A DNA stretch of 64,000 nt, from contig NW_023501039.1 in NCBI RefSeq assembly GCF_014066305.1, positions 682,001 to 746,000 on the forward strand, written 5' to 3'. Positions 6,973 through 45,881 of the stretch are shown one piece after another. Position 1 is the first letter of the stretch; each line of letters opens with the position of its first letter. Made by a program: the position numbers and the translations under genes. The DNA is from Letharia columbiana (Eukaryota > Ascomycota > Lecanoromycetes > Lecanorales > Parmeliaceae). The notes under the pieces were generated by a model. The model had not been told where the DNA came from and did no database searches. It saw only the letters and a program-made list of their open reading frames with translations.

Positions 6973-9148
6973 TCAGACCCAACCAACCCTTCTGGCGGCC
7001 CAACTCATCCCACCCAGCATAGCACTGACTCCTGTAAAGACAATCAACCCGCCGTAACCAGTCCCGTATCCTAACATTGCATCCCCAGCCCACGGCCGCT
7101 CGCTCAGCAAGGCCTCGCTCAACGGCCCGCTCACTACGCTCCCTATCCCTCTCCCTGCGGAGAGCAGTCCGAGGACCAAGCCTGCTTCAGCACGATCGTC
7201 GACCCTCTTCACCTCTTGAATGCTACCAGTGTATGTGGAAGTGAAGCCACCTGCAAACAGACCGTAGAAAAGGCTGAAGATGCAGAGGAGAGGGAATGAG
7301 GTGGAAAAACCCCAGAGGAGGAAGACGGATAGGGTGGCACCGATGGTAGAGATGAGGATGACGGCTGGATTACAATTTCAAGGTCAATGATGCCTTTCTG
7401 AGGGGGTATATTGTGCCTTGGATCATGTCTATAGAGTAGACACTCCGAAGCCACCTTCCAGGACTTAGGATTTTGTCCAGAAGAGAACGTATGGATGCCA
7501 AGAGTACTTACTTGTGATGTGTAGTCTGTCGCTAAGAAATCCCAAAATAACCTGACTAAAAACCGAAGTCGTATTGAATAGAGATACCGTTACGGTGCCA
7601 GAAACCGAGGATAGACCCAAAGTCCGTGCGTAAGTAGGCAGGTAGATGTTCGGGATGAAGAAGCCAAGGCTCTCGAGGATGTTGCCGGTTTGAAGGATCC
7701 AGAATGTGGATGCCCTAAGAAACCCCCAATGGAGCCGCCGACTATGAGATGTTGGGGAGACTGGTAGACGGGGCTTGACGTAGTAGAGGAGGCTTGATGA
7801 TTTCGGAGTCAGCATTACTCTTTCGGAGGACTTCTGGGTCGCGAGACAAGTCTTAGGAGCAGAGAACTCTTCAAACATGTCTGACGACCCATAAGACAGC
7901 ATGAATGGGGAAGAATCGCCTCGGAAAGTATAACGTACAGGCCCACGAGAAGAAAGAGGATGATGGACCATGCGCGCAGCATGGTACTGAAAGAGTACTT
8001 GCTGAGACCCCAGTTCATCAAGAAGGGTATGCAAACCCCACTGAAGCCTAAGATAATCAGACGGAGTCTTGAGTTTAATGTGGATAGGAGGATGATTACC
8101 TGTGCCTGCCCACATGACACCAAAGGCAAGACCCTTGCGTGCGATGAACCACTCGTCTAGGAAGATGATTGTCGGTGTGTACAGCATGGAGCCCCCAATT
8201 GCATACAAAACGCCTTGGGTTAGAATAAGGTGCGAGACACGGGTTGCGAAGGAAGAGGCCACGAGACCAATAATCATGGTGAATAGGCCAACGACGGCAC
8301 AGTGGCGGCGGCGAAGTGGAAACCGTTGAAGGAGGGCAAAGGAGAAAGGTGCACCAAGGTACATGATACCCTGAATGGAAGGATTCGATATTAGCAAGGC
8401 AGTGATATTAGGGTAACAGACTTGAGTCTATTGTGAAAAAACCATACCATTGCCGAAGTACCAATGATAGCAATGCCAGATGGTTCCGTCGAAAAGGGCG
8501 TATGCGTGCTGTAGTATTCTTGGAATACTCCGAAAGAAAAAGGGAATCCTGAGAGAAGTTTTAGCATCATAGTCACGGCTTTTTTGACATAGCTGGAGAC
8601 GATGCTGGTGAGGTAGAGGCTAGCTGCCGCAATTGCATGTCACTTTAACAATCTGGCCCCAGGACCTGCCAGTGTGTAATAGGATTTGCCCTTCCAAATG
8701 GTCAATATGCAAACAGCTGAAGCTTGGCTGGGGGCAACCCAATTATCATAGAAGCCAAAGACCGTTCGAAGCGACGACGGTCAGGATGGCCAGCATTTAA
8801 GACACGGACAGAATGGTGCTAAGTATGAGCAGATGAAACGACCGCCTTCGCCGCCAGTCCGCTTGGGTATGGGCCATGATCATGACTGTTCTCTTGGAGC
8901 GTTGCAGCGAAATACAGCTGTAGCAGACAGATACACTCACCCCATGTCAAAGCTTCTATGCAGAAGCAGCCCGCTAAGAACAGCCATGCGTCTTTCCCAC
9001 CATCAGCCTTTGGTAGGGAAACATGTTCGTTTTCCGCTCCATGTGGGTGTGAATGTCTGCTTTGAGCGCGCTGTAAACCATCCTCTTCGTATCCAGAGGC
9101 CAGTGCCCTGCCAACATTTGACAAAGCCAAATTCTGGTTTGAGGCCAT
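6973..9148 (-). CDS. MFS transporter, monocarboxylate-permease-like
   Basis: Exons (minus) 9148-8941, 8548-8448, 8370-8100, 8047-7939, 7792-7512 and 7364-6973 total 1362 nt, or 453 residues. The hydrophilic N-terminus (about 52 residues) is followed by KDAWLFLAGCFCIEALTWGF and about twelve membrane segments in two halves, with a central cytoplasmic loop around residue 235 (YYVKPRLPVSP). Features of the MCT-like branch of the MFS: the WGFPFSFGVFQEYY start of helix 1-2, DEWFIARKGLAFGVMWAGTG after helix 4, and GFLSDR in the second half. Substrate unknown; likely a plasma-membrane proton-coupled carboxylate or related permease. Intron 1 is unusually long (392 bp). Intron 4 (7793-7938) is an introner-like element. 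Intron 5 (147 bp) shows no similarity to it. The ATG at 9148 opens the only frame that fits. Confidence 0.85.
7793..7938 (-). mobile_element. Introner-like element, copy A (intron 4 of the MFS gene)
   Basis: A 146-bp intron whose whole length, from donor GTACGTTATA to acceptor ATCATCAAG, matches copy B at 44524-44670 with about 17 substitutions and a 1-nt indel (about 88% identity, counted by eye). Similarity stops exactly at the splice sites; flanking exons are unrelated. A branch point TGCTGAC lies about 15 nt before the acceptor. It interrupts codon 230. The left flank ends CCT and the right flank starts CCT, compatible with a 3-bp duplication, but copy B has no such duplication. Matches the described properties of introner-like elements (near-identical spliceosomal introns multiplied into unrelated genes). 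Confidence 0.85.
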
Positions 9149-15202: not shown

Positions 15203-18066
15203 TTACGACGCGGTAACGACACCGGTGCCCCCGGCCTTGATCTTCCTCGCCACACCACCGGGTCTCCGTTTGTACTTCCTGGGATCTGTTTCCACAGTCA
15301 GCGCAAGTATCTATCTCTTCCCCAGACGACCACGAGGACCACATACCTTTCCTCGACTACGCAGATTTCCGAGTTAGCATTGCTGGTTCGAGATAGGTAG
15401 TGGAGTGGCAAGACTAACCATGCGACTCTTATCGCGCGTCCCCTTGCCCCCCTCCCAAAACCCGCTCCCGGCTTTCTTAATAAGACTCGAATGACAGATA
15501 CCACAATCCTCGGGTCTATAATTCTGCTCTCTCGAACAGTACCCACATATCATGCGATTGGCATGCTCATTCGGGTGATCGCTTTCGGTATCATGACATT
15601 TGTCGCAGGCAAATACTCTAGAGCAGCAACTGAAACGGAACCAGCGGTAGGATTTGCTATAGTGGGTACAGCGGCCATTTCGGGGTAGGGGTTGGCCTGC
15701 GGTAATGCCCAGGGAGTCTTTGGGCCTTTTACGGACGGGGGCTCGGTTTGCGCGGGCTGCGGCCGATATGAGGAGAAATTTCACTTCGGGGATTTTGAAG
15801 GCTGGATGCGTTTCGTCAGAAAGTCGCTATGATCAAGGCATAAAATAGGGAATCTTACTCATTTTGCGATGACACTCTCGGCAAACTGCCATGGAAGACT
15901 CGCCGCGAACCGATACTAAACCTGGCGCAGGCTGTGTGGTTGAGCATTCAGAGCAAATTGGGAGAAAGTTACTGTAACAATGTAAGTGAGGTACTAGGAA
16001 GTAAAGAGGGTAGCTATGTCACCTTGGAAGCATATCAAGCACAGTACACCCCTCGAGATCCAGGTACCCAGCTCTCACAGAATTCGCATGCATGAGCTCC
16101 CTTCGATAACCGACGCCAAGAGGCATGGCGCACTTTTTACAAGACTCAGAGCGGCTTGCATTATTCCGCAGGTTGCTGATGTCCATAGTATCCTTGCAAC
16201 GCTCGCACTTGATCGTGATACACAAAGAGACGAGCTCTAGCAGCTCAATGCCGTAGAGCTCTAAGAATGGGAAGGAAAGAGAGATGCCACGCTCTGGAGC
16301 CGTTGTTGATGTCGATGATTCAGGAACACGATCGACAGCAGCGCCTCCGTCATCTTCGTCTTCGTCGCCTGAATCGTAGGAGTCAGAGTACTCGCTGTCA
16401 GTGGAATCTTCCACTTCGTTTTGAGCAGACCACTCGGGAGGGCGTGGGATGAACTTGATATGGCTGCGATCGTCTTCGTCACCTTTCGCTGGGCCAATGT
16501 CTTTTTCAGGGGCTGCTTCCTCCACTGACAGAGGGGCGACGTCTGGAAAATCAGCCTTTTCTGCTTCTGGCTCTTCCAGAGGCTGTGTAGCCAGCAAATG
16601 CATATTCTGTGCCAAATAATTCACATGCCCCATCAACGTCGTTGCCGGACTCTCCTTGATTTTCTTCTCAAACCCTCTTTCGGTATTCTTGGCCGCTTCT
16701 CTACTCACACCTTGAATTTCCACCCTACAATGCTGCAAGGGGTAAAGCGAAGGGACAAAGAGCTTAATAGTGTTGACAGCTTGTAACGGCACAGGCAGAT
16801 CTTCATGTTTCCGTGGCGCTATGGGGATCGTATAAGCTACGCCGTCCGAAGACTTGGAAAAGAGAGGGAGACGGCCTATGCGGGCTTCAAGCTGGCGCGT
16901 TTCTGCCTCTCGACGTTCTGAAGCGAGACGACGTACTTCTGGGGTGAAGAACTTTTGAGGTCTGCTGGGATTCGTGGGCTGTGGTCGAGGTTCTCTAATG
17001 TCTTGAGCAGGCTTGACTGGCTCTTGCTCTACACTTCTTCCCTGTACCGGTATTTTGTTTGGGATGATAGTGATAGTCTCAGCCTTCTGCTCCGTAAGCA
17101 AGCTCTCCAGCTGTTTGTCCAGATTGTTCATCAGCCCCAACAGCGTGCTCTGCGGCCTACTCTCCGCCAAACGGGCAAAGCCACGCTCGATGTTGATCTG
17201 AAAACCTCTACCCATCTCCTTGTTCTTGACATGGATGGACGGTCTTCCCTCTTTGGGGTAGGTGACCGGCACATGGAGCACGCACTCCAACCCGACCATC
17301 TCAAAGGGAAAGTCTGGGTCTGAGGGTGCCATAGAGAAAGCATAGCTTGTCCCGCCATTTTCGCTCTGCTCTGTGGGAGAGAACCTCCGCTTCAGCTGTT
17401 TGATCTGAAACTCCCTTGGGTCTTCGGTCTGAGCTATGGGGACGGGCTTGCTGACTACGCGGCTTCCATCTACGGGCGGTGGTATGAAGCGGCGGCCTTC
17501 CGTCAAGCTTGTAGATGGGACACCGGCTGGTGTATCACTCCGGGCCTCGGTCTGCTTGGAGCTGCCAGCAGGGTTCCCTGGTAGCGCAGATTGTGCAACG
17601 TGCCGGGGACGTGTCCTCGGCTTAGGTCCATTACTGGCGTCTTTCAGCCTGGAAGGATCGTGAATGAAGGGGCAAGCGTCACCGGTTCGACAACCTGCAA
17701 TGTCATTTTATGAGACGCAAGCACAGACTAGATACTAGGTGCAGAATGTGACCACGTAACAGAGGTCGAGATCGACGCTTGTAAGATGAAGCACGTGCAC
17801 ACACACCAGACATTCATCGTCACCAAAGGCACTATGAAAAAGGAAGGAAACGGATGGAATTACCATTTTTGGTGGCATAAAACTTGCAGTAGTTCGTTTT
17901 CCCCTGTGGCAATGCCGGTTGACGTGATGGCTGAGGCGCAGAGCCTCCCCCTTGAACAGCGCCGAGGAAAAAGAATCAGCATGCGTGTCCTTGTGACCAA
18001 GTTTTTTGCCAGCGCATCATCTCGCTTTCACATACCAACAACGAGCTGACTTGTTTGGTTGTCCAT
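15203..18066 (-). CDS. CCCH and CHY zinc-finger protein
   Basis: Exons (minus) 18066-18036, 17950-17864, 17694-16023, 15971-15859, 15801-15419, 15356-15347 and 15285-15203 total 2379 nt, or 792 residues. Near residue 32 a CCCH finger spans an intron (C-x8-C-x5-C-x3-H; the second half is CRTGDACPFIH). Two repeated modules follow (HVPVTYPKEGRPSIHVKNKE...GLMNNLDKQLESLL and KLFVPSLYPLQHCRVEIQG...LMGHVNYLAQNMHLL), which look RWD/UBC-like. A highly acidic stretch precedes a CxxC-rich region (CERCKDTMD, CKKCAMPLG, CSEC, CREC). The C-terminal CHY finger carries CTHYSKSYRWFRFSCC, ACDKCHD, ICGYCSREQ and DCGICH. CHY fingers occur in Hot13/RCHY1-type proteins and bind zinc; this fungal fusion with a CCCH finger has no settled function. 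Exon 6 is only 10 nt. The tail SRKDPRKYKRRPGG is basic. Confidence 0.88.
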
Positions 18067-42393: not shown

Positions 42394-43208
42394 TCACTGG
42401 GTCCCAAAGGATTTCTCTCCTTCCTGCGCATATACCCCAGTCAGCATCGCTTCTTCGATCCAGGAACCCGAGTTCTAGAGAAAATCTGGGAATAGAGAGA
42501 ACGGGACCCTTCCGAAAGATTCCAGTGACTCTGCTTTGGAACCAAGTAGGAAGAAAACGCTCTGAAATGACAGACCTTTGTCTTGATCTCTTCCTTCTCT
42601 ACCTTTACTACGTGTGCCGCACCGGGCCCATTGTTGAGCTCTTTGAGGAATGACTTGATGCTGTCTTCCGAGCCTTGCGCTTCCCCAGCTACCTACACAG
42701 CCGACTGTTAGTCACTAAATTCGATATATCATCATGTTGACGTTTGGGAAATGGTTCCTTGCGGTATCTTGTTACGTGATAGCCCATCTAAGAGGAATTG
42801 TGGATGGAAGAGGTGCAAAAGAGCAAGCAAAAATAGTGAAAGGAGCAGGAGACAAATGAATAACGCTTTGAAGAATTGCCAGGAGCCCGTACCTTGTCGT
42901 CCGAAGTGTTCGCAACAAAGCCCGTTAGGTTCAGGGACTTTGCTTTTGATTGGGTGAACGATCTGTCAAGTAAGAAATAGTCAAACATGGCCTATCCTAC
43001 ATTTTGTGAAATTGGCGTTGCAGTATGCCTACCGAAAGTTGACACCTGCTAACAGTCAACAGCCTGAGCTAATCGAGGCCTCAGAATGAGATAATGACAA
43101 ACCCTGCACTGTGCCATGTACTGTGTAGGAAATCTGTTCGAAGCGAGGATCAGCTGGCTAACCCTCTTCATCAATGCCTCCGCCCATGCATACACGTTGT
43201 TGAGACAT
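42394..43208 (-). CDS. Acylphosphatase
   Basis: Exons (minus) 43208-43194, 43133-43103, 43045-43033, 42962-42893, 42692-42576 and 42423-42394 give 276 nt and 91 residues, the normal size. The product reads MSQQRISYTVHGTVQGVNFR, then SFTQSKAKSLNLTGFVANTS, then EAQGSEDSIKSFLKELNNGP and a tail EGEKSFGTQ. The active-site arginine (G-x-V-Q-G-V-N-F-R) and asparagine (G-F-V-x-N) are both present. The enzyme hydrolyses acyl phosphates such as 1,3-bisphosphoglycerate in the cytosol. Five introns interrupt this tiny gene; exon 3 is 13 nt; introns 4 and 5 are 200 and 152 bp. The last join uses GTCTGT as donor and is the least certain. Confidence 0.88.
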
Positions 43209-43553: not shown

Positions 43554-45881
43554 CTAACGTCGCCTGTTGGGCCCTCCAGTGTTGGCTCGATCGGCCATGC
43601 TAACAACATCCCCAATACCAGCCTCTTCTTGCCTCTCTTCTTCCGCTGTGATCTCTTCCCTGCTGTCCCACCATCTAGTCTCCGCTAGATCAAATGCCAC
43701 CTTCCTCAACTCTTTGATAGAATTATTCGCGCCATCACTCTTGCTATGCAATTTCTCAAGAACAAGCTCTTGCCATGAATTCGAAGTCCTAGAGAAGAAT
43801 TCGCGAAGACTTTCAAATGCTCGCGGGTGAGGCCTCGTGTCGATCAATGTAGTTTCTGGCTGTTCATCTTCAGTCTCATCCATGTGCTCCTCTGCCAATG
43901 GTATTTCCGTAGACTTTGTTGGGATCTCTGTTGGTAGCAGAGCCACACCTGAAGGCGTGTCTCCCTCCATGTCTTCATCTGTTGAACCGAATTCTTCCTC
44001 TCCATCGGAACCCGATTCGCTCTCCGAATCGTCGACTTGCCAATTTTCGAGTTCCCTTCTGTAAATTTCTTGAATGCCATCGAGTTTACCGAGATCGACG
44101 GCGTGCATCTCATCAAATGTATATTCGCGATCACCGCGCTCATAGGTGCCTCCAAAGATATACAATACATCGCCTTGAACGGCCAGCTGGGCGTTGAACC
44201 TGGGATGGGGCATGGTGCTTTGGATTGGTTTGGCTGCCTTAGGCGGCGACCCTTCTGCCTCCATCATGGGCTCTGTATCTATAGTATGTGAATCCGCAAT
44301 GGTTCCCTTTGTTTCCAGTGCCGCAAGGTTGCGGAGCAACTCAGCTTCATCTGCTTTGCTTCTGCCTCTTCTTGCACCACGATCTTCCATCTGCTTCTTG
44401 GGAGCAATTTTGGCTCGCCGCAATGTTAGGGGGAAAAATCTATTACGCTCGATGTTGAATGCAAAAAGTTGGTCGAAGAATTCGCTGTCGATGCCTTCAT
44501 CGCTCTCTTCGACATCGTGAACTCTTGATGATTTCGGAGTCAGCATTACTCTTGCGGGAGGAGTTCTGGGTCGCGAGACATGTCTTAGGAGCAGAGGACT
44601 CTTGAGAGACATCGGACGACTCATAAGACAGCGTGAATGGGGAAGAATTGCCTTGGAGATTATAACGTACCCACCAAACATAATGCCACGACCTTTGTGA
44701 TAAGCCTGGGTCACGCCTGCTCTGGGTGGATTCGGCGAATTTACCGGTTTCTTGCGACGTTCCCATCGCATTGTTGGGGCAGCGCTGCTTGTTGCATCTG
44801 TAGCTGGTGGCTCGATTCGAAGCACCCAAGTGTCTTGATGTATTGTCGGTTTCAAGACCGATTTCGATGATTGAAGGCCTCCTTTAGTCTGTTTGCCAAC
44901 GGTAGTGTTGGCTTTGACCCTTGAATAGCCGCCAAATAAGACAGCTCCTGCGTCATGTGGAAGAAAGGAGAACGAAGACCTCGCATCAGGCTTCTGAGGC
45001 AGCACAGGATTGTGCCACACGTAATTTTGACAGTCATAAACCCAAAGATCTTGTAAATACTTGGTTACCTGGGAAGTATCCTGGAACCCTCCAAACAGGA
45101 TTATGTAGTTCTAGGTCGATTGAGCAGCTGCTAGCTACCGTAGTCTAGATCTGTGAACTTACTTTATAATATACTAACCTATGTCCGCTTCTCGCAGGCG
45201 GGCTCTTACCTTTACTTTCTAGTCTGGTCCACTCTCTAGTGGATGGTTCTAGCCTCCAGAAGTCGTTGTAATGGTAAAAAGTACCCTGTTTCGGTGACGA
45301 AAATTCGCCTGATCCCAGATTAGCGAGCCTGATATAGCAAGGGACTCTTTCCTTCGGTTTGATTCCCAGGCGTACCCCCAAATAGATACACGCCGCCTGC
45401 ATTGCCACCTCGACACCATGCATGCCCACTTCTAGGCAAGGGACTATTGGGGCTCGTCACTTTTCGCCATTCGTCTCTTTCAACGTGGTAGATAAAAAGG
45501 TCGTTGAAGAACGAAGCAAGAGCGCCGTTGTAATACTCGCCCCCAAAAAGAAAAAGCTCCTTCACATTGGAAGGTGAGCCGATGAGAGTTGCTGATGAAC
45601 GAGGAGATGGAGCTTCGCAAAGAGTCTCCGTGACTTTGAGAAATTGGGCTTGCTAATTTCGTGAGTGGCTTGAGACCATTCCAGGATGCCTTAGAAGAGA
45701 AGTTACCCACTTGTTTGGCGTACTCTTCTAGCAATGATTCCAGGTCGACATCTTCAGCGTCACTATCGTCCGCTCCTTTGGGCTTGACTTTCTTTTCTTT
45801 TTGGGCTGTCTTTTTGCTTTGTTTGGCAGCAACGCGAGCTTTCTTCTCAGCGTCTTTGGATTTCTTATCCTTCTTAGCCAT
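43554..45881 (-). CDS. Kelch-repeat protein, Kel3/KLHDC4 type
   Basis: Exons (minus) 45881-45711, 45652-45376, 45308-45163, 45110-44671 and 44523-43554 total 2004 nt, or 667 residues. The lysine-rich start MAKKDKKSKDAEKKARVAAK is typical of this family. Kelch blades follow: KELFLFGGEYYNGALASFFN, LPRSGHAWCRGGNAGGVYLF, PPARSGHRLVYYK, IILFGGFQDTSQVTKYLQDL, SSFSFLPHDAGAVLFGGYSR, RAGVTQAYHKGRGIMFGG and LAVQGDVLYIFGGTYERGDR. The acidic segment DSESESGSDGEEEFGSTDED precedes a C-terminal helical region (ESLREFFSRTSNSWQELVLE). These proteins form a beta-propeller; cellular role unclear (yeast Kel3 is cytoplasmic). Intron 4 (44524-44670) is an introner-like element inserted between a blade's GG and the next strand. 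Confidence 0.9.
44524..44670 (-). mobile_element. Introner-like element, copy B (intron 4 of the kelch gene)
   Basis: A 147-bp intron nearly identical to copy A over its full length, with the same donor GTACGTTATA, the same branch region (AATGCTGACTCC) and the same acceptor ATCATCAAG. It splits codon 345 so that splicing joins IMFGG to VHDVEESDEG. Its length is a multiple of three and the host frame runs through it without a stop. Confidence 0.85.

Follow-up and report, generated by a model that had tools for sequence, protein, structure and literature searches.

Near-identical introns in two genes of a fungal genome: in all probability members of an introner-like family, with exon-border memory in a sister family

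The two near-identical introns of the window, by which we mean the whole stretch of 64,000 nucleotides that was analysed, are almost certainly members of a family of introner-like elements, a known kind, here called family A; in the related family B of the same genome the exonic base on each side of the element follows the lineage of the element. The account presented here, that of a mobile introner-like family bounded by its own splice sites and having, in its sister family B, a route of spreading that carries the exon borders, is held as a whole with high confidence, the exon-border-carrying route being, when taken on its own, a tentative proposal.

The elements of the window and the genes surrounding the first two of them are as follows.

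7793–7938, minus strand: family-A introner-like intron in an MFS transporter gene, 146 bp, GTACGT...CATCAAG
7519–8048, minus strand: partial coding region of the MFS transporter surrounding the first element, with two exon matches (C4:689519–689848 and C4:689902–690048)
44524–44670, minus strand: family-A introner-like intron in a kelch-repeat gene, 147 bp
43554–45020, minus strand: open frame of the kelch gene, continuing through the second element
42424–42575, minus strand: older family-B-like intron, GTCTGT...GCGCAG, with profile scores of 29.4 and 43.8 bits and GT and AG ends recognized by eye
15357–15414, minus strand: 3′ remnant of a family-B element, 58 bp, ending AAATCTGCGTAG, scoring 32 bits over model positions 98–155 and having an exact 3′ end

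Global alignment of the introns at 7793–7938 and 44524–44670 gives 130 identical columns out of 147, with 16 mismatches and a single 1-base gap; the likeness stops at the GT and at the AAG, and the 50-bp flanks yield no alignment. The donor GTACGTTATA is common to both introns, as are the branch-like motif GCTGAC and the acceptor AAG, and this uncommon acceptor is a property of the element, being present in 43 of the 45 exact-ended copies of family A. The premises of the first-pass annotation, namely that two near-identical introns agree over their full length on the same strand, that their similarity is bounded by the splice sites and that donor, branch site and acceptor are shared, are thus borne out by the alignment, which also rules out a chance similarity. 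When the window was compared with itself by BLAST (word size 11, low-complexity filter on, E ≤ 1e-3), no second repeat pair was listed. The length of the intron at 44524–44670 is a multiple of three and its frame is free of stops, so that retention would add 49 residues to the kelch protein. Two further elements had escaped the first-pass annotation: that at 42424–42575, an intact GT..AG intron with borders AAG|GAA, and the remnant at 15357–15414, whose host reads by eye like a zinc-finger gene.

A search of the genome (52,243,142 bases in 161 contigs; 40 of 62 first-look candidates scored) with the intron 7793–7938 detected 40 near-full-length matches, the query included, extending over at least 139 of the 146 bases with 83–100% identity. 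Shorter patterns gave a 27-base tail at 55 places with up to 3 mismatches (0 for the reversed control), a 15-base core in 89 exact matches (0 for the control) and a 17-base core motif at 370 places with up to 2 mismatches, as opposed to 2 for the reversed control; the core being common to families A and B, the resulting several hundred represent the combined total of both. Further copies of the element therefore exist, and the earlier extrapolation from two copies to hundreds holds for families A and B taken together. As to the suggestion of an active or recent source of introns, a fairly recent multiplication is indicated by the closest pair found, 7793–7938 and C25:413923–414068, which are 97.3% identical, whereas current activity is demonstrated for no copy.

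Family A consists of elements of ~147 bp that end in AAG, with a median nearest-neighbour identity of 88%, and the related family B of elements of ~155 bp that end in TAG or CAG (YAG) and have near-terminal inverted repeats. A profile search on 67 merged regions, amounting to 237,507 bases with the window included, recognized 128 distinct elements above 20 bits, 100 of which were matched also on the opposite strand and are thus imperfect palindromes; GT and AG occupy the model ends in 36 of 41 long family-A matches. Exact ends were found in 96 of the 168 profile matches, the other 72, which do not reach the model ends or have no GT..AG at them, being left out, and removal of two segmental duplicates from the 96 left 45 family-A and 49 family-B copies to be counted. 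Many of the latter were fetched by their similarity to one element lying between C and A (C|A), so that the C|A clade is over-sampled. Segmental duplication was rejected as the main source of the copies, just two duplicates having been met and dropped; the pairs C9:671317 / C145:1433 and C77:208424 / C109:29719, whose flanks match across contigs, are either segmental duplicates or redundant contigs. Plasmid records contained no match to the element.

The coding frame offers a first indication of how these elements are placed. In family A the best coding frame is in sense for 31 of 36 copies; in family B a hexamer frame test gave 18 sense and 9 antisense cases (n = 27), a weaker outcome; several B genes contain more than one element and have shorter exons for this reason. 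Of 56 pairs of adjacent elements lying within 1.2 kb of each other, 53 have both members on the same strand. All ten family-A junction peptides sampled from 36 match Pfam, the stretch of the best family crossing the junction in six, and the families concerned are three MFS (one just under the curated cut-off), kelch, alpha/beta hydrolase, aconitase, TatD, LCAT, methyltransferase and M13 peptidase. GT, branch-like motif and AG are present in the elements and the frames are continuous; the elements would be removed by splicing.

Comparison with relatives, made on proteins only, indicates that the kelch homologues continue across the 44524–44670 site in 120 of 120 cases among the matches listed (760 found), the MFS homologues across the 7793–7938 site in 75 of the 76 that cover it (87 found), and the relatives of a homoserine-acetyltransferase-like gene across its family-B site in 119 of the 120 listed (728 found). 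Many MFS relatives begin at an inner methionine, as do plain open-frame calls. The introns would thus probably be absent in relatives at 80–90% protein identity, as judged from proteins that may be plain open-frame calls, and those of the window would have been gained recently.

Clusters of elements occur at C49:147447–148680, C9:617497–618753 and C2:1289325–1290987, with four elements each within ~1.7 kb and a single strand per place. At C29:218748–219046 (locus L050) and C34:217365–217624 (locus L093) two family-B elements stand head to tail with zero exon bases between them (AG|GT), the second beginning where the first stops and missing the usual exact 3′ end; recursive splicing of these pairs is possible. 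Widespread head-to-tail insertion was rejected, the genome containing just 2 such places at ≤1 mismatch and, at ≤3 mismatches, 21 as opposed to 14 for the control.

The borders of the insertions carry no evident target-site duplication, a border repeat of at least 4 identical bases being found in 0 of 45 A and 0 of 49 B copies, and 3-base matches in 4 copies of the two families together with 1.7 expected. The per-base border match, again for A and B together, is raised at some multiples of three (3 bases, p = 0.008; 9 bases, p = 0.016), in keeping with the periodicity of codons. Relative to nearby bases of equal codon position, C is favoured by family A at −2 (27 of 45, p = 0.0028), as is C or G at +2 (37 of 45, p = 0.001). 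In family B the −1 base is C or G in 40 of 49 copies and the +1 base A or G, likewise in 40 of 49. Sites of the type AG|G account for 0 of 45 family-A and 2 of 49 family-B insertions. Three family-A copies, C9:671317 (L129), C56:324499 (L016) and C14:474887 (L131), have the border AGACCC|AG in common and differ in their outer flanks; L129 and L016, which are tree neighbours, share the longer border AAGACCC|AG.

It is in family B that the borders acquire a history. Among 98 pairs of B copies at least 85% identical, the border base matches with a frequency of 0.76 at −1 and 0.72 at +1, the corresponding values at ten other positions within 6 bases being 0.19–0.34; upon permutation of these close pairs the −1 value was reached 0 times in 5000 and the +1 value twice in 5000. 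The B tree calls for 9 changes of the +1 base, as opposed to 20.4 after shuffling, and for 15 of the −1 base, as opposed to 22.2, neither figure being reached in any of 1000 shuffles; positions 3–9 on both sides are unclustered, and +2 (p = 0.019) and the control position −10 (p = 0.016) are somewhat clustered. The C|A clade, chosen by eye on this tree, has 14 tips and is monophyletic (support 0.897); 13 of its 14 copies lie between C and A, and six more C|A copies are found elsewhere on the tree. For the 35 of 49 B copies lying outside the C|A clade, the +1 base agrees with that of the nearest neighbour in 26 cases (10.1 expected, never reached in 5000) and the −1 base, modestly, in 19 (a value met in 83 of 5000 permutations), the control position −3 being raised too (15 of 35 as opposed to 8.4, reached in 146 of 5000).

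Held-out copies behave largely as expected. The lineage of C9:618429 (at least 79%) provided 10 of them, 6 with a fitting 3′ end, in which the +1 base is the expected G in five and T in one, and that of C111:26031 (at least 83%) provided 6, of which 2 were fitting and both had the expected C, so that agreement over the two lineages amounts to 7 of 8 readable cases. Two less similar copies of the C|A lineage (80–81%) have A in one case and G in the other. Family A displays no border memory, the match being 0.24 at both −1 and +1, and its 97.3% identical pair has neither border base in common; the two families may differ in their route, or family A may have lost the signal.

At two junctions the codons seem to be older than the insertions. 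At a C|AA junction Gln is found in all 107 homologues caught by motif search among 120, and Glu in the two best PDB relatives; at a G|C junction the Pro that follows is common to ABCG8. By the look of these two sites, the junction codons predate the insertion, and the bases were probably present in the target already. A single guide base inside the intron was tried as the origin of the −1 and +1 preferences and rejected, no column being found to fit: for +1 the best complement reaches 0.65 and the best identity 0.66, and for −1 both reach 0.49.

Predicted RNA structure was compared between the two families. Fold z-scores below −2 (40 shuffles each) were obtained for 35 of the 49 copies of family B and for 21 of the 45 of family A. 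In all 14 copies of the B1 clade the outermost six pairs (columns 2–7 with 157–162) are unchanged, and a double change preserving the pair occurs in just 2 of 43 predicted pairs; this combination of unchanged pairs and scarce covariation makes the structure look inherited from source copies and not maintained in each copy. A conserved RNA fold in family A was rejected, almost no common fold being found there (7 pairs left); of the two window introns, that of the MFS gene gives a good fold (z −3.62) and that of the kelch gene equals its shuffles (z 0.02). Inverted repeats are near-terminal in family B and, by eye, missing at the very ends of family A.

The mobile unit corresponds to the element delimited by its own splice sites. 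Its insertion causes no evident duplication of target bases, and it occurs mostly in sense and in exons, where the spliceosome can excise it; the copies would then decay to ordinary-looking introns and lose their hairpin, a process suggested by the divergence that is seen among them. In family B the inserted molecule would have brought along a single exonic base on either side, or would have needed a match to it, which would cause the −1 and +1 bases to run in lineages.

The route of insertion allows several readings, and reverse splicing of the excised intron, either into the DNA of an R-loop or into an RNA subsequently copied, has a real though less than even chance of being the correct one. 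Exact intron ends, insertion with no evident target-site duplication and the bias for sense and coding positions are what this mechanism predicts, and it is the favoured model for fungal introner-like elements in the available portions of PMC8469720 and PMC9860276. An excised intron, however, retains nothing of the exons it came from, whereas the B border bases run in lineages; furthermore, no single intron column complements or equals the border bases well, and AG|G sites are as rare as mentioned above in both families.

The border memory of family B points instead to a template that includes the exon borders, be it DNA or an unspliced transcript, and not to the fully excised intron. New B introns might thus derive, as one possibility that we put forward with reserve, from a template having one exonic base per side and settling only at targets that offer the same two bases. 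This template would probably be cut at the foot of the hairpin of the element. Capture of such a hairpin fragment can account for the memory, since insertions at unmatched borders would add exon bases and be lost; taken alone, it leaves the sense bias unexplained unless the fragment is a transcript or its capture is linked to transcription. Indeed, the sense bias suits an RNA-linked insertion better than the capture of free DNA, a point that counts against what we regard as the best explanation. Targeting encoded by the element is a possible alternative source of the B border memory.

That the elements are miniature inverted-repeat DNA transposons doubling as introns is unlikely. The near-terminal inverted repeats of family B, the invariance of the six outermost B1 pairs and the palindromic nature of 100 of 128 elements are reminiscent of such transposons, but target-site duplication is not evident, both splice sites lie inside the element and, by eye, family A has no repeats at its very ends; neighbouring elements, moreover, agree in strand in the proportion given above, and the sense bias would be left unexplained. 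Less probable still is that the border bases merely reflect selection for efficient splicing, with only those sites surviving that suit the signals of each subfamily. Splice-site context does matter for splicing, and G precedes all five copies having the weaker donor GTTCGT; on the other hand, C, a poor exon end for U1 pairing, occupies −1 in nearly the whole C|A clade, and the memory persists within the B copies having both the GTACGT donor and the TAG acceptor (n = 29; +1, p = 0.0005; −1, p = 0.008). Finally, duplicated genes or gene conversion, of which the two removed segmental duplicates (C145/C9 and C109/C77) are reminders, are a very improbable origin of the common border bases, given the low match of close pairs at the ten other nearby positions and the greater apparent age of the C|AA and G|C junctions, the former with Glu in its two best PDB relatives.

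The reading in which family B inserts together with its exon borders can be set beside the systems already described, and the feature fits most of the tested marks of fungal introner-like elements. By their description in the available portions of PMC4457414, the elements of Dothideomycetes (Fulvia, Dothistroma, Zymoseptoria, Passalora) likewise consist of many near-identical introns in unrelated genes, are longer than ordinary introns, form several families per genome, can occur twice or more in one gene, decay with age and have a predicted secondary structure. They differ in their hosts, the present one probably belonging to another class of fungi, and in their preference for AG/GY sites, reported in the part of PMC8469720 that was available, whereas here AG|G is nearly absent and the borders of family B form lineages. 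The sister stwintrons and cropped sister introns of Hypoxylaceae, as presented in portions of PMC8469720 and PMC12403724, resemble our elements in their terminal inverted repeats, in the near-terminal stem joining the terminal Gs, in their seamless insertion in the coding strand only and in a symmetry that fades with age. Unlike these, our elements exist in hundreds of copies, and those that were aligned, 36 of family A and 14 of family B, are by eye single GT..AG units, the internal intron splitting the donor, which is the mark of a stwintron, being absent from them. The same portions of the two papers report no nucleotide bias at the borders of the Hypoxylaceae and Xylariaceae elements; in our case the bias emerges after the copies are sorted by lineage. 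With the DNA-transposon introners of algae and other organisms, as described in part of PMC9860276, the similarity consists in the spreading of introns as mobile repeats, some with inverted repeats, and the difference in that here there is neither an evident target-site duplication nor a co-opted splice site. Fungal introners are said in that part of PMC9860276 to lack duplications and inverted repeats and to be an outlier devoid of transposon marks; inverted repeats and symmetry are stressed for them in the available part of PMC8469720. Among the titles listed by literature searches, none suggests lineage-specific border bases and none points to introners in lichen fungi.

A setting in Dothideomycetes, the group from which the first-pass annotation took its examples, is not supported by the proteins. 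The best named matches are those of Bacidia gigantensis (Lecanoromycetes, 76%) and of Wetmoreana brouardii (69%), a lichen fungus, with close scores for Cadophora (67%) and Monilinia (65%) in the case of the kelch protein, and for Aspergillus (69%) and Hortaea (66%) in that of the other gene; these sequences place the host, weakly, nearer to lichen-forming fungi than to Dothideomycetes.

The family may extend introner-like elements to lichen-forming fungi. The origin of new spliceosomal introns is a long-standing open question, and the border-base memory, countable in any introner genome, would tell models with an intermediate containing exon borders apart from models based on the excised intron. 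If it is true that the family-B template carries exonic bases, each insertion would record the border of its parent, and the genealogies of introns would become readable from the exon bases that flank them.
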